Source: Helicobacteraceae bacterium | GTDB lineage: Bacteria; Campylobacterota; Campylobacteria; Campylobacterales; Sulfurimonadaceae | Length of the DNA stretch: 64,000 nt | Reading direction: 5' to 3' | Assembly (NCBI GenBank): GCA_027038835.1 | Contig: JALWGC010000018.1 | Coordinates: 1-64,000, forward strand | Shown: piece after piece, positions 16,362 to 24,468 of the stretch | How the letters are laid out: the number at the start of each line of letters is the position of its first letter | Numbering within the stretch: position 1 is the first letter of the stretch | Position numbers and translations under genes: made by a program | Notes under the pieces: generated by a model | Databases searched by the model: none | Told to the model about the DNA's origin: nothing | What the model saw: only the letters and a program-made list of their open reading frames with translations

Positions 16362-17690
16362 ATGAGTTTAAAAAGTAAAACTTTTGAGAAACTGGCAAAT
16401 GCAGTGGATCAGGCTGATGAAACGACTGTTGACGGAGTTGAGATACTCGCACTTGCTGCAAGTGCCGTAAAAAACCTAAATGAAGGAACGGACACGGAGG
16501 AGGACATCTATCAGATAGGTACACCGGGTGAGATTGGTTTTGGTGTAGCAACTTGCCCTGCGCATTTGATACCGAGTGGGTGGCGTGGGCTTGAGGGACA
16601 CGACAACATTATGAGCCCGAACTACGGGAACTATGTTGATGCAAACGGCTCTATCCTTGTTTATGTTCCAAAGCATTATTACAGATGGAGTGGAAACACG
16701 CTTGAGATATCGCACAGACCACTAAGCGGCTTTGTGATCGATAGAGCGTTTATAAATGGTGGTAAAGAGGTAAACGGTGTTTTTGTCTATAAGTATGGCG
16801 GTGGTAATATAAATGGAATCCTTGTAAGTAAAAAAGGGCTTGACCCAGTAAGCTCGTACAGTGGACATAATCCGGTCGCAAACATAAACGGTGCAAGCGA
16901 AAACAATCATGGAGAGTTCTATCAAGCTGTTAAAAGCGCCGGTAACGGATACTTCCTTACATCTGTATTTATCTACAGTATGTTGGCACGACTCTCGTTT
17001 GCACATGGTAAAGCGGCTACAAATCAAGTCGCATGTGCGTACAGCGATGTCGCTCCATATATGCCAAAGGGCTGCAACAATAATGCACTTGCCGACACGA
17101 ACGACAGTGGCGTAACATTTAGCCCAAGCGGCTATAGTAACTGTGCGCTGACAGGAAGCGGAGAACCGTTCGCAAAAACGACGCATAATGGACAGGACTG
17201 CGGTATAGCCGACTTGAATGGGAACATGTGGGAAGTTGCAAGCGGATTTATAAGAACTGATACAGATGGCTTTTTGTTACTAAAAGAGAGTGTAGATATA
17301 ACGGCTATTCAAGACGATGGCACAAGTGGAGGTGCTTATGACACCTCTTTGTACGATGCTCTTGATATCAGCGATGTCGTTAGCGGCAACGATGGATGGA
17401 TCAGAATAGGCAACGGTGCAAATGCAGTATTTGCTATGAATACAGACAGAACTACGGCTGACTACAAAAGAACAGCCATCGGCATACCGACTCAAAACGG
17501 TGTTAGCAGCGGGGGAACGACAGAGTTTGGTAACGACGGAGTGTATCGCTACCTGCGTGACCAAATGGCTTGTCTTGCCGGTGCGGCTTGGAGCGCCTCG
17601 TCGATTGCCGGTGTTTTCGCGCTCCATTTGTACGATGCTCGCTCCTACTCGTACTACGGTGTCGGTGCCCGTGCCTCGTACCTTGTGTGA
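16362..17690 (+). CDS. DGR target: variable C-type-lectin-like tail adhesin
   Basis: A 442-residue probable receptor-binding protein. Residues 1-60 are helical; the rest has the formylglycine-generating-enzyme/C-type lectin layout seen in DGR targets, with the marker block CGIADLNGNMWEVASGF near residue 286 and the variable strand-loop at the very C-terminus. Its last 112 coding bases are the VR, matched by the TR at 18140-18251 except at adenines, so about 15 surface residues (ending in Tyr, Ser, His, Asp, Gly) differ from the template. AAAAGGAG precedes ATG 16362. It should let the phage sample new host receptors. Confidence 0.92.
   Translation: MSLKSKTFEKLANAVDQADETTVDGVEILALAASAVKNLNEGTDTEEDIYQIGTPGEIGFGVATCPAHLIPSGWRGLEGHDNIMSPNYGNYVDANGSILVYVPKHYYRWSGNTLEISHRPLSGFVIDRAFINGGKEVNGVFVYKYGGGNINGILVSKKGLDPVSSYSGHNPVANINGASENNHGEFYQAVKSAGNGYFLTSVFIYSMLARLSFAHGKAATNQVACAYSDVAPYMPKGCNNNALADTNDSGVTFSPSGYSNCALTGSGEPFAKTTHNGQDCGIADLNGNMWEVASGFIRTDTDGFLLLKESVDITAIQDDGTSGGAYDTSLYDALDISDVVSGNDGWIRIGNGANAVFAMNTDRTTADYKRTAIGIPTQNGVSSGGTTEFGNDGVYRYLRDQMACLAGAAWSASSIAGVFALHLYDARSYSYYGVGARASYLV
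17565..17676 (+). repeat. DGR variable repeat (VR)
   Basis: A 112-base segment at the 3' end of the target gene, offset 575 bases from the TR. The two are identical at all 84 positions where the TR is not A. At 19 of 28 TR adenines the VR differs (9 to G, 5 to T, 5 to C). A GC-rich stretch GTCGGTGCCCGTG at its 3' end may be part of the initiation site for mutagenic homing. Confidence 0.95.
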
Positions 17691-17717
17691 GCGAACGGTA
17701 GTGAGCGGGAGTAAGTA

Positions 17718-18110
17718 ATGGGTGTGCATAGTGAAGCGATCCTCAATAGGAAGTATATGGAGATGATTAAGTTGTTAAATATCTATCTCAATCATTTCCC
17801 GCGCTATGAAAAATACGCGCTTGCAAACAACATAAGAAGTACGGCATATGAAGTGTACGACCTTATCAGCGAGTGCCAAAAACGGTATCATAAAAAAACT
17901 TCTATCACGCAGCTGGACATTACACACCAGAAACTTCGTATGCAGCTCTATCTTGCAAACGAACTGAACTATTTTGCGTTTAAAGACGGCAAAAAAGACG
18001 AAAAAGTAAACGCTTCAAAGCGTTATATGGCTATCTCCAAGCTTATTGATGAGCTTGGGAAGATTATCGGTGCTTGGATAAACAAGCTAAAAGAATTAGG
18101 ACATTTCTAA
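17718..18110 (+). CDS. avd: Avd, DGR accessory variability determinant
   Basis: A 130-residue basic four-helix-bundle protein between VR and TR, exactly where Bordetella phage BPP-1 carries avd. Recognisable blocks are YEKYALANNIRSTAYEVYDLI and KKTSITQLDITHQKLRMQLY (each split here), followed by KRYMAISKLIDELGKIIGAW. Avd forms a barrel-shaped pentamer that binds the DGR reverse transcriptase and template RNA and is needed for mutagenic homing. GGGAGTAAGTA precedes its ATG. Its TAA overlaps the ATG at 18110. Confidence 0.92.
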   Translation: MGVHSEAILNRKYMEMIKLLNIYLNHFPRYEKYALANNIRSTAYEVYDLISECQKRYHKKTSITQLDITHQKLRMQLYLANELNYFAFKDGKKDEKVNASKRYMAISKLIDELGKIIGAWINKLKELGHF

Positions 18111-19372
18111 TGCAAAACTTAGGGCAGCACACCAACATGAAAGCTTGTCTTGCCGGTGCAAATTGGAACAACTCGTCGATTGCCGGTGTTTTCACGCTCA
18201 ATTTGAACAATGCTCGATCCAACTCGAACAACAATGTCGGTGCCCGTGACTGTTTTTCCAAGCCTGAAACTGCAATGGCAGATACTGGAAGAAGAGGGAT
18301 GTGCTATCCTGCTAAAAGCGAAATCAATAAAGATGGTGGTTTTTTGAGTAGCAAAGTCGAAAATCAAACTCTATCGAAACGAATAGGATATCTGTTTGAA
18401 TTAACTTTTACAAAAGAGAATCTTTACGAAGCGTTTTTGATAGCGCGAAAAGGAAAAAGAAAAAAAAGAGCTACGCTGAACTTTGAAAAACATTTAGGAA
18501 GCGAAATAGATGCTTTATATGATGAATTGCACAATGGTACTTACAAACCAAAGCCATACAAGCAATTTGTAGTACATGAACCTAAAAAGAGAATTATCAA
18601 TGCTCCAGCATTTCGCGACCTTGTTGTGCAACACGCTATCTATAAAACTATCTACCCAATCTTCGATGCAACTTTTATAGATACATCGTACGGTTGCAGA
18701 AAAGGCGGTGGTACGCATAAAGCGAGTGAATACACACAAAAAGAGATGAAAAAATACAGTGGAGAGCTTTACTATGCCAAACTCGATATAAGAAAGTTTT
18801 TTTATTCGATAGATAGGGATATCTTGAGAAAACTGTTCGAAAAAAAGATAAAGGATAAAAAGTTTGTTGATTTGATGTGTGAGTTTGCGAAAATGGACAG
18901 CGAAAGAGGCGTACCAATCGGCAATCTTTTAAGTCAGATTTACGCGCTCATCTATCTCAATCCGCTCGATCATTTCATTAAGCGTGAGTTAAAGGTCAAA
19001 AGCTATGTACGCTATGTGGATGATTTCGTCCTTATCGGCTTAACAATAGATGAGGCAAAGCGCTATAAAGAGCTATGTGAAGAGTTTGTTCAAAGAGAGC
19101 TTGCGCTTGAGTTGTCGCACTACCAGATACAGAAGATAAAAAAAGGGATCAATTTTGTCGGATATCGCACATGGAAGAGCGTGAAATTTGTGCGCAAACA
19201 CAGTATGTACAAGTTTAAAAAATCGGCAAAAAAATCGAAAATTGAGTCAGTCGTCTCTTTAGTAGGACATGCAAAGAACACAGCAACACTTCCTTACTAT
19301 AAAAGGCTGCTGATTGAATTTCAGATTTTTAATCTATTACCAAAAAGGAGTCAAGCATGTTTAAATATGTAA
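18110..19372 (+). CDS. DGR reverse transcriptase, reading frame includes the TR
   Basis: A retron/group II-like reverse transcriptase. Visible blocks are HEPKKRIINAPAFRDLVVQHA, the first catalytic Asp in YYAKLDIRKFFYSID, the DGR-type VPIGNLLSQ (in place of the usual QGxxxSP), YVRYVDDFVLIG with the catalytic YVDD (codons 19013-19024) and NFVGYRTW. It copies TR RNA into cDNA with errors at adenines. The frame is open back to ATG 18110, which overlaps the avd stop and has AGGA upstream, so the protein may start with about 50 TR-derived residues. ATG 18275 and 18299 are alternative starts giving a usual-length enzyme. Confidence 0.92.
   Translation: MQNLGQHTNMKACLAGANWNNSSIAGVFTLNLNNARSNSNNNVGARDCFSKPETAMADTGRRGMCYPAKSEINKDGGFLSSKVENQTLSKRIGYLFELTFTKENLYEAFLIARKGKRKKRATLNFEKHLGSEIDALYDELHNGTYKPKPYKQFVVHEPKKRIINAPAFRDLVVQHAIYKTIYPIFDATFIDTSYGCRKGGGTHKASEYTQKEMKKYSGELYYAKLDIRKFFYSIDRDILRKLFEKKIKDKKFVDLMCEFAKMDSERGVPIGNLLSQIYALIYLNPLDHFIKRELKVKSYVRYVDDFVLIGLTIDEAKRYKELCEEFVQRELALELSHYQIQKIKKGINFVGYRTWKSVKFVRKHSMYKFKKSAKKSKIESVVSLVGHAKNTATLPYYKRLLIEFQIFNLLPKRSQACLNM
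18140..18251 (+). repeat. DGR template repeat (TR)
   Basis: A 112-base copy of the VR that serves as RNA template. It contains 28 adenines, mostly in AAC/AAT codons (ten in the VR reading frame), the codon type whose mutation gives the widest amino-acid range without stop codons. It lies between avd and the conserved part of the RT gene and is in frame with both the target's VR frame and the RT frame. Confidence 0.95.
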
Positions 19373-19896
19373 AATTCGAAAAAGTACCGACAGAGTACAC
19401 GGTGTTGGAGTTTTTACCCGGCGATGACAAAACAAATGTGAACTTTTTTACAGGTGTCGATGTCGTAAGCATAGAGGCAGACAACGAAGCTGAGATCGAT
19501 GCTCTTATAGCAAAACAGCCAGTAGAGATCAACTGTGTCGAGATTACGCAAGATGAGTTCAAATCGCTTGTTGATAGCACGGCGCAAGTGTTGCGCATAC
19601 GGGAAGTTGTAAAAGAAAGCTACGATAGAGACCTGGCAGTGATAACACACAAATATCCGCTTCCTGAGAGAGAAACTTGGAAGATTCAGAAAGAGGAAGC
19701 AGAAAAATTTTTAGAAAGTAAAAACGAGGATGACTCTCCATTTTTGAAAATACTTGCTGAAGCTGAGGGAAGTACAGTAGAAGAGTTTGCAAATGCCGTC
19801 ATGGCAAAAAATGACGCATTCGTAACATACTCAGCTCAAGCGCTTGCAAAGAAAAGAACGCTTGAGAGAGAGTTGTTTGCAAAAATAGGTTTGTAA
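19357..19896 (+). CDS. Tail fibre assembly-like protein (DUF4376-like)
   Basis: A 179-residue acidic protein starting inside the last codons of the RT gene with an AAAAAGGAG ribosome site. Its second half has the pattern YPLPERETWKIQKEEAEKFL and SPFLKILAEAEG, followed by a long helix ending KKRTLERELFAKIGL, which resembles DUF4376 and tail-fibre assembly chaperones found next to phage fibres. It may help fold or mount the variable adhesin. Similar genes often follow adhesins, so position agrees. Confidence 0.65.
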   Translation: MFKYVKFEKVPTEYTVLEFLPGDDKTNVNFFTGVDVVSIEADNEAEIDALIAKQPVEINCVEITQDEFKSLVDSTAQVLRIREVVKESYDRDLAVITHKYPLPERETWKIQKEEAEKFLESKNEDDSPFLKILAEAEGSTVEEFANAVMAKNDAFVTYSAQALAKKRTLERELFAKIGL

Positions 19897-22266: not shown

Positions 22267-24468
22267 ATGTCGATAGAAAAACTGGTAAACAAACTCGATA
22301 TCGCCGAGCATATAGAAAAATTCAAACACTTTTTCTCTCGGGAACACTCCCTTTACATTCAAGGGGATCAAGAGCTGCATTTTCGTTATATAAGCGCGCT
22401 TGAAAAGCTGGAATTCAACTCCCCGCCAAAAACCGCTTCACTGCAAAATGTTTTTATGCATCTGAAAAAACATGGTGTTTTACATTTTGACCAGATTTTC
22501 GAACTAGTCAAGATAGTTCGCTATTTGCGCTATTTCAAAAATTTGAAATTAGAGGGGATTTTGCTTGAGTGGATGAGTAAAATCGTCATCGACGAGCGGT
22601 TCGATGAAGTGGAGAAGTATTTCGACGCCAAAGGAAACTTCAACGAAGAGCTTGACGAAGAGCTCTACAGGTACAAAAATATCCTCTCTCAGCACAAACA
22701 AACCATTGGTGATTCGCTCAAACGGCTTGTGCATTCGTCGAAAATCACCCCCTATCTTATCGATACGCAAATCCACTACATCAACAATGAAGAAGCGCTA
22801 CTTGTTCGTGGCGGGTTCAATCATGTACTCAAAGGCTCGGTTATCGCTCGAAGCAGTAGCGGCGGTTTTTATGTCGTACCCGATGCGGTACTCAAAACCA
22901 AAGAGAAAATCCGCACCATCAACCAAGAACGTGAAGCGATCCTCTACCGCTACGCGAAAGAGTTTTCCACCAAACTCGAATCGATGCTGCCGTTTTTGAA
23001 GTTCATCGACAAAGAGTTCGAAAAGCTCGACAACTACCAAGCGCGGGTGAAGTTCGCAAAAAGCGAAAATCTCTCTATCCTCAAAGCGCAAAAAGACGAC
23101 AAGATCGTACTTGTCGATTTCATCCATCCCGCTTTGTCGCACCCAAAACCGACAAACGTCGATTTTGGCAAGAACGTTTTGATGATAACGGGGGTGAATG
23201 CGGGAGGGAAGACGATGTTGCTCAAGTCGATCCTCGCATCGGCATTCATGGCGAAATATATCATCCCCATGAAAATAAACGCACACAAATCGCATATAGG
23301 TAGTTTCAAAAAAATCGAAGCGATTATCGACGACCCTCAAAACGTCAAAAACGACATCTCCACTTTCGCCGGAAGGATGAAACAATTTAGCGAGATTTTC
23401 AAACTCCAAAACGCACTCATCGGAGTCGATGAGATAGAACTAGGAACCGATAGCGACGAAGCGGCGGCGCTTTTTAAGGTGATTTTGGACAACCTGATAA
23501 AAAAGCACCAAAAAATCGTCATCACCACCCACCACAAGCGTCTTGCTTCCCTTATGGCCGATCGCGACGATGTGGAGCTAATGGCGGCTATCTACGATGA
23601 AAAAGCGCGTGTACCGACGTATGAGTTCATGCAGGGAATCATAGGAAAAAGTTATGCTTTCGAGACCGCTTTGCGTTACGGCATAGGGGTCGATGTCGTT
23701 AATGAAGCGAGAAAGGTTTACGGGGATAACAGCGAAAAACTAAGCCTTCTTATAGAGCGTGGAAGCGAACTCGAGCGTCAGTTGAAGAAAAAGCACGCCG
23801 AACTCGATAAACGTTTAGAGGGGGTGAAAAAACAAGAAGAGCTTCTCAAAGAGGAGCGTTTCAAACTCGAAGAGGAGTTGCAAAAACAAAAACATCTTCT
23901 TCAAAAAGAGTTCGACGAGGCGATAAACGCAGCAAAAAGAGCCGCAAAAGGGGAAAACCCTCGAGAAATTCACCGCGCACTCAATGAAGCGCACAAGAAA
24001 AAGCCGAAACAAAAACCGCAAAAAGAGCGAAACAAACACTATACGTTCAAAGTAGGCGATGGAGTGAAGTACCATAACTCTACCGGAACTATCGTCGAGC
24101 TTAAAGGGGAGAACGCCACCATAGAGGTGAACGGTTTGAAAGTGCGGGTCAGTACCAAACAGCTCCGCCCGGCACAAATAGCAAAACCAAAAATCAAAGC
24201 CAACGTCAAAGTCAACGTAGAGAAAAAATCGGGTCTTAAATGCGATTTGCATGGCCTAAGAAGTGAAGAAGCGATAGAGGTGTTGGATAAATTTCTCAGT
24301 GATGCTTTACTTGATGGATGGGATGAAGTGATCGTCTATCACGGTATAGGAACGGGGAAACTCGCTTATGCGGTCAAAGAGTACTTAAAACGCCATCCAA
24401 AAGTGAAGTCGTTCAAAGACGCTCCGCCGAGTATGGGAGGCTATGGAGCGAAGTTGGTTACGTTATAG
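22267..24468 (+). CDS. mutS2: MutS2 family DNA-binding ATPase with Smr nuclease domain
   Basis: A 733-residue MutS2. The ATPase core has Walker A GVNAGGKT near residue 308, the IGVDEIELGTD Walker B region and the THHKRL switch; a long coiled coil follows (about 500-590), then a KOW-like segment (FKVGDGVKYHNSTGTIVEL) and a C-terminal Smr domain (CDLHGLRSEEAIEVLDKF, YHGIGTGKLAYAVKEYL, about 658-733). MutS2 lacks mismatch-recognition domains; it suppresses recombination in Helicobacter and rescues stalled ribosomes in Bacillus. It likely shares a transcript with the downstream flavoprotein gene. Confidence 0.95.
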   Translation: MSIEKLVNKLDIAEHIEKFKHFFSREHSLYIQGDQELHFRYISALEKLEFNSPPKTASLQNVFMHLKKHGVLHFDQIFELVKIVRYLRYFKNLKLEGILLEWMSKIVIDERFDEVEKYFDAKGNFNEELDEELYRYKNILSQHKQTIGDSLKRLVHSSKITPYLIDTQIHYINNEEALLVRGGFNHVLKGSVIARSSSGGFYVVPDAVLKTKEKIRTINQEREAILYRYAKEFSTKLESMLPFLKFIDKEFEKLDNYQARVKFAKSENLSILKAQKDDKIVLVDFIHPALSHPKPTNVDFGKNVLMITGVNAGGKTMLLKSILASAFMAKYIIPMKINAHKSHIGSFKKIEAIIDDPQNVKNDISTFAGRMKQFSEIFKLQNALIGVDEIELGTDSDEAAALFKVILDNLIKKHQKIVITTHHKRLASLMADRDDVELMAAIYDEKARVPTYEFMQGIIGKSYAFETALRYGIGVDVVNEARKVYGDNSEKLSLLIERGSELERQLKKKHAELDKRLEGVKKQEELLKEERFKLEEELQKQKHLLQKEFDEAINAAKRAAKGENPREIHRALNEAHKKKPKQKPQKERNKHYTFKVGDGVKYHNSTGTIVELKGENATIEVNGLKVRVSTKQLRPAQIAKPKIKANVKVNVEKKSGLKCDLHGLRSEEAIEVLDKFLSDALLDGWDEVIVYHGIGTGKLAYAVKEYLKRHPKVKSFKDAPPSMGGYGAKLVTL

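Follow-up and report, generated by a model that had tools for sequence, protein, structure and literature searches.

Probable translation of the template repeat as part of the reverse transcriptase frame in a phage diversity-generating retroelement

The template repeat (TR) of diversity-generating retroelements (DGRs) has been called mostly intergenic by Roux et al. (PMC8144416) and non-coding by Paul et al. (PMC4372165). The locus described here has a reverse transcriptase (RT) frame that is open through the TR, which raises the question of whether the template RNA is also a coding message and, if so, whether the TR-encoded peptide or the passage of ribosomes across the template is selected. 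The locus lies in the window, i.e., the whole 64,000-nucleotide stretch of DNA that was analysed, and is ordered as target gene with variable repeat (VR), avd, TR and RT (to 19372). Its features are as follows.

16362..17690, + strand: DGR target gene (tail-type protein with the VR at its C-terminus); open reading frame (ORF) matching PHROG tail and unknown families
17568..17676, + strand: VR, a 109-nt repeat
17718..18110, + strand: avd, ending in TAATG; ORF matching Pfam bAvd (PF22296, E=1.2e-15) and phrog_3206
18098..18101, + strand: AGGA, Shine-Dalgarno-like, 8 nt upstream of ATG 18110
18110..19372, + strand: RT ORF, with the TR and spacer within its first ~96 codons; open frame, RVT_1
18140..18251, + strand: TR, in the frame of both VR and RT; mismatches to the VR at A only
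18344..18346, + strand: in-frame TTG, a possible internal RT restart that is not conserved (found in about two thirds of fused relatives)

The VR (17568-17676) and the TR (18143-18251) show 17 differences over 109 nt, of which 17/17 fall on TR adenines (A>G 8, A>C 5, A>T 4), and all 19 mismatches (19/19) do so when the comparison is widened to 112 nt. The RT matches RVT_1 (Pfam) and the bRT of Bordetella phage BPP-1 (PDB 8ub7, E=3.8e-53), and the motifs IGNLLSQ and YVDD are present in its sequence. With an A-specific TR/VR pair, a bRT-related RT, Avd and a structured spacer RNA adjoining the TR, the window element is a phage DGR. The genome contains one RT of this kind, and the VR differs from the TR in the single genome copy seen. 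A Pfam search with the target gene (16362..17690) gave no match. The locus is assigned to a phage or prophage because the DGR is preceded by a tape-measure gene and followed by an endolysin-like gene (Pfam, PHROG). A long ORF at 22267-24468 resembles by eye MutS2, a host-type gene, and the interval from the endolysin-like gene (21521) to this ORF may contain the edge of the prophage.

The stop codon of avd (TAA, 18108-18110) overlaps ATG 18110, forming TAATG. The RT frame that begins there is free of stops across the TR and a 159-nt linker, ends at 19370-19372 and encodes 420 aa. Residue 3 of bRT (PDB 8ub7) aligns with residue 90 of the window RT, so that the latter would carry ~88 extra N-terminal residues; residues 47-61 of the putative long RT read DCFSKPETAMADTGR. 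An earlier note on this DNA had described the overlap with an AGGA upstream, the frame without a stop from 18110 through the TR into the RT and the frame shared by TR and VR, and each of these is borne out by the sequence. The codon frame of the VR in the target gene is indeed that of the TR in the RT ORF, but this is expected and provides no independent evidence, because VR coding leaves only the VR frame of the TR stop-free; the other two TR frames contain stops in 25 and 24 of 26 relatives. An alternative start at ATG 18137, likewise upstream of the TR, is possible.

BPP-1 shares with the window the order target-VR, avd, TR, spacer and RT, A-specific mutagenesis and a structured spacer, but its brt starts 144 nt after the TR, and its TR frame has no ATG, GTG or TTG start. 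The contrast with BPP-1 drawn in the earlier note was thus correct, although BPP-1 is not the general rule. The brt frame of BPP-1 is also open back across the TR into avd, though it is not the VR frame and lacks a start codon where avd stops, so that an open RT frame carries little weight by itself. The window element does not belong to the BPP-1 type, in which the TR lies outside any ORF and the RT starts 3' of it, as its RT frame is open from the avd stop and conserved. By its reading frame it belongs with the TR-RT fused DGRs of the ACA1/VP58.5 type, in which the RT ORF runs from the avd stop and contains the TR in the VR frame. For Pseudoalteromonas phages ACA1/ACA2, a single sentence has already stated that the TR is in the RT frame (PMC10612066, 2023). 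In these phages and in Vibrio phage VP58.5 (gp19-gp20), the avd stop overlaps the RT ATG and the TR lies in the RT N-terminus in the VR frame, as in the window, whereas their RT belongs to a distant clade. A 2012 survey listed TRs overlapping RT ORFs, which is the same geometric arrangement, but from annotated coordinates only and without analysis of reading frame, start codon or selection. The "core creep" of mitochondrial intron ORFs (PMC8393795), where the reading frame of an intron or retroelement grows in the 5' direction across structured RNA until it joins, in frame, the coding sequence ahead of it and acquires the translation signals of the latter, resembles the window element as an analogy of working and not by membership, as it concerns organellar (fungal mitochondrial) introns with splicing.

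The open frame through the TR is conserved and not due to chance. Relatives were taken from IMG/VR, species genomes and phage records, and the TR, VR frame, avd stop and RT frame were located by script. Close relatives comprise 26 distinct lineages with an RT-core identity of at least 68%, and a further lineage, L013, was considered in addition. The survey of related DGRs proposed in the earlier note found the frame open through the TR in 26/26 close lineages and in L013. An ATG or GTG is present at the avd stop in 25/26 in the forms TAATG, ATGA, GTGA, TAGTG, TGATG, TAAATG, TAGTATG and TAAAGATG. Alignment gaps 3' of the start are multiples of 3, and the distance from the avd stop to the start varies by 1-3 bases. 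No frame-0 stop occurs in the 26 sequences, compared with 8.1 expected in the linker and 2.0 in the pre-TR region if columns varied independently, and the remaining two frames contain stops in 22-26 of the 26 relatives. The open-frame state is clustered on the RT tree, with at least 5 changes.

The exception at the avd stop is L050 (4351-4400), the sole member of the window clade without a start codon there; its frame through the TR is still open. Four lineages (L064, L062, L078 and L065) are nested among the fused lineages and contain stops between TR and RT, with a strong Shine-Dalgarno sequence (AGAGGGG) ahead of a downstream RT ATG. They represent an apparent loss of TR translation and a natural control, and the nesting of L064, L062 and L078 indicates that a DGR of this type can do without translation of the TR. 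The earlier note had held that such stops in related DGRs would count against it; they do occur in sister lineages, but these have an RT start of their own downstream, and the claim for the window clade is therefore not refuted by them. Most lineages retain an AUG just 5' of the TR (position 18137, AACATG/AATATG), whether or not it is in frame, and this AUG may also be an RNA element.

A second fused clade contains Vibrio phage VP58.5 and Pseudoalteromonas ACA1; in both of these, and in Aeromonas phiARM81mr, TR and RT are fused as in the window. All 16 distinct lineages of the VP58.5/ACA1 clade (16/16) are fused, and each has ATGA where avd stops. Twelve of them have no start codon between the TR and the RT core, so that a normal RT start must lie within the TR or ahead of it. 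The linker shows a pN/pS of 0.43 in frame and of 1.24 and 1.08 out of frame, and on these values it is clearly a coding sequence. The clade is an independent replicate of the TR-RT fusion. Among 31 more distant lineages, one fused DGR was found.

A different architecture appears in a large clade from phages of Pseudomonadota (L019 and L118-L196). The TR of this clade is out of the RT frame, yet the TR frame is itself an ORF, which begins at an ATG 4 nt past the first base of the avd stop (TAACATG), runs through the TR and the linker and ends on the RT start (ATGA). The AUG conserved at position 18137 is the start of the TR ORF in this clade and is internal in the fused clade. The linker is stop-free in the TR frame in 49/55 lineages versus 9.1 expected by shuffling, whereas the other frames contain stops in 34 and 49; GC-rich composition was rejected as the cause of the open linkers on the same comparison (9.1/55 against 49 observed). 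The tree of this clade requires at least 32 changes of linker length compared with 7 changes of length modulo 3, some of which are noise in calling the TR end. Two exceptions (L018 and L123) retain the coupling via TGACATG. The peptide encoded after the TR has a pN/pS of 0.93 and no third-position excess; since the frame is kept nonetheless, the unbroken path for ribosomes would be what is maintained and not the peptide. The overlap of the TR-ORF stop with the RT ATG was set aside as evidence, as it is partly automatic (ATG AAR always contains TGA), and the frame and the stop-free linker were used instead. The absence of stops between TR and RT does not suffice as a criterion either, as many relatives that appear closed by it in fact carry a TR ORF of their own, which terminates at the start of RT.

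A census of 156 distinct lineages gave 48 fused, 55 with a separate coupled ORF and 53 with neither (BPP-1 included); because sampling concentrated on relatives of the window, the counts are not frequencies among all DGRs. Judged from these frames, TR translation appears to be recurrent and not universal.

The bases of the open frame also carry a strongly covarying RNA fold, which consists of the following elements.

18121..18133, + strand: helix 1, 5' arm; the helix encloses the TR (covariation)
18298..18310, + strand: helix 1, 3' arm, containing ATG 18299; 98.8% of cells paired, compensatory change in 6/12 pairs
18250..18296, + strand: helices 2-4, located at the 3' junction of the TR and within the spacer, with ATG 18275 in a hairpin loop (covariation)
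18311..18319, + strand: helix 5, a small hairpin (covariation)
18338..18370, + strand: helix 6; compensatory change in 5/5 pairs

The fold comprises 34 pairs, with 97.7% of cells paired versus 33-44% when partners are slid, compensatory change in 21 pairs and a covariation score of 0.381 versus at most 0.079. Helix 1 starts 11 nt past the start codon at 18110, helix 2 begins at the 3' end of the TR, and four further helices follow it. Lineages that lack the fused frame likewise conserve the pre-TR and spacer motifs. The window RNA folded alone is not more stable than shuffles (z +1.29), and the fold is therefore supported by covariation alone; an Rfam search of 17600-19500 returned no match, even at E=1. 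The fold is most likely the DGR spacer RNA, which in BPP-1 recruits bRT-Avd and primes cDNA (PMC12875486).

These observations are probably best explained if the template RNA is also a coding mRNA in which an unbroken ribosome path from avd to RT is selected, with RT synthesis coupled to avd and the TR peptide as a by-product. Ribosomes finishing avd would start or restart at ATG 18110 and move across the 5' arm of the RNA, then the TR and spacer, to yield a 420-aa RT with a disordered N-terminal tail of ~88 residues. Selection would maintain the uninterrupted passage from avd over the structured template into RT, so that RT synthesis depends on avd, and the peptide encoded by the TR would come as a side effect. 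The TR and spacer (~270 nt of structured RNA) must adjoin avd and RT, and ribosomes therefore have to traverse the template if RT is to be coupled to avd, a need that could be answered either by fusion or by a TR cistron of its own. The sequences themselves show the A-only TR/VR pair, the open frame, the conserved start at the avd stop, the retention of frame in two independent fused clades, a second architecture with the same path and the covarying fold in the same bases. Stop-start pairs of the ATGA/TGATG kind were strictly coupled in 13/14 tested cases (PMC6728339). That ribosomes initiate at 18110, that coupling is the advantage gained and that the enzyme tolerates the tail is inferred. 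As far as the comparative data go, ribosome transit (coupling of avd and RT) and not a lectin copy seems to be selected.

As the distance from the start codon to helix 1 is 11 nt, ribosomes and the template fold should interfere, and a conflict between the two is plausible. The earlier note had raised a possible control of the supply of template RNA by translation. Translation of the TR might accordingly be a regulatory switch, in which ribosomes unfold helix 1 and keep the RNA in its mRNA form, whereas Avd-RT bound to the folded spacer blocks RT translation, so that each RNA serves as either message or template. The position of helix 1 (18121-18133 with 18298-18310), enclosing the TR so close to the start, and the published recruitment of bRT-Avd by the BPP-1 spacer RNA (PMC12875486) fit this possibility, but many related DGRs (53/156 lineages) manage without TR translation, and we regard the switch as tentative. 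A broader proposal is somewhat more speculative, namely that translation of the template RNA is obligatory in a large share of phage DGRs, either fused to the RT or as a coupled cistron of its own, and that ribosome transit across the fold decides between message and template and sets a built-in limit on diversification.

The preferred reading, passage of ribosomes from avd through the TR into RT, requires an RT start before the TR. Three start candidates lie after the TR in the window (ATG 18275, ATG 18299 and TTG 18344), and none is conserved among the fused relatives; L033 and L048 have no ATG, GTG or TTG between the TR and the RT core. ATG 18275 sits in the variable loop of a small hairpin. 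ATG 18299 is confined to the window, L049, L012 and L013, which are exactly the four sequences with a C-G instead of a U-A pair at 18130-18301, and is a by-product of a compensatory RNA change. Production of two RT forms, the longer initiated at 18110 and the shorter at an internal UUG or AUG, would fit the Shine-Dalgarno-like GAGGA and TTG at codon -22 in several relatives. It is unlikely, as one third of the fused lineages in the window clade, and the majority of the VP58.5 clade, lack the internal start.

A start exclusively after the TR is slightly less likely still. The upstream open frame would then be incidental, with the TR stop-free through VR coding and the linker conserved as RNA. 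The three candidates in the window, the TTG at -22 in about two thirds of fused relatives (in some with GAGGA upstream), the strong RNA constraint on the linker bases and the beginning of BPP-1 bRT near the same point (8ub7 residue 3 aligned with window residue 90) are compatible with it. It is opposed by the lack of any conserved candidate and by the 2 window-clade and 12 VP58.5-clade lineages that have none, and constraint on RNA explains neither the gaps in multiples of 3 nor the missing stops, nor why a start codon has repeatedly been formed anew where avd ends. The RT thus very probably starts before the TR and carries a TR-encoded N-terminus, as judged from comparison of sequences.

The TR peptide itself is not usable for a test of selection, as VR coding constrains the same codons. 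The window-clade linker shows a pN/pS of 0.63 in frame versus 1.07 and 0.95 out of frame, with a third-position excess (p=0.002) that falls mostly in the last 33 linker codons (p=0.0016) and that alone would be compatible with a start after the TR. Directly after the TR the signal is not significant (pN/pS 0.77, third-position p=0.15); it is weak at the protein level there because the same bases are also constrained as RNA. The N-terminus is predicted to be disordered: AlphaFold2 run with 26 aligned fused RTs gave a pLDDT of 23-37 for residues 1-89, with a folded core. The earlier note had suggested that the enzyme may carry a copy of the lectin end; its TR-encoded N-terminus is very probable, whereas a meaningful or functional lectin copy is not supported (~36 residues, pLDDT 23-37, and pN/pS 0.93 in the separate-ORF clade). 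A protein function of the TR-encoded N-terminus, such as binding of TR RNA or of a lectin partner, is accordingly the least probable alternative, since against a linker pN/pS below 1 in both fused clades stand the predicted disorder and the lack of protein-level constraint in the separate-ORF clade.

No earlier report of frame selection, a separate TR cistron or an overlaid covarying fold was found in the open-access literature; the evidence for selection, the second architecture and the overlaid RNA fold would be new here. Should translation of the template occur in many lineages, one stretch of bases would have to satisfy three constraints at once, i.e., a protein frame shared with the VR, RNA structure and the placement of adenines. 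RT dosage would then depend on avd translation, and RT expression would be broken if "the TR RNA" were excised in order to transplant or engineer a DGR. TR translation would also provide a concrete handle on how an RNA comes to serve as message or as template.

The PHROG family phrog_32112 (43 aa, unknown function) and the N-terminus of the RT profile phrog_1423 match the TR-encoded stretch of the window (18110-18250). An in-frame TR accounts for such odd entries, an RT profile with a TR-coded N-terminus and a 43-aa family of the TR peptide, and the databases already contain translated TRs, unremarked.
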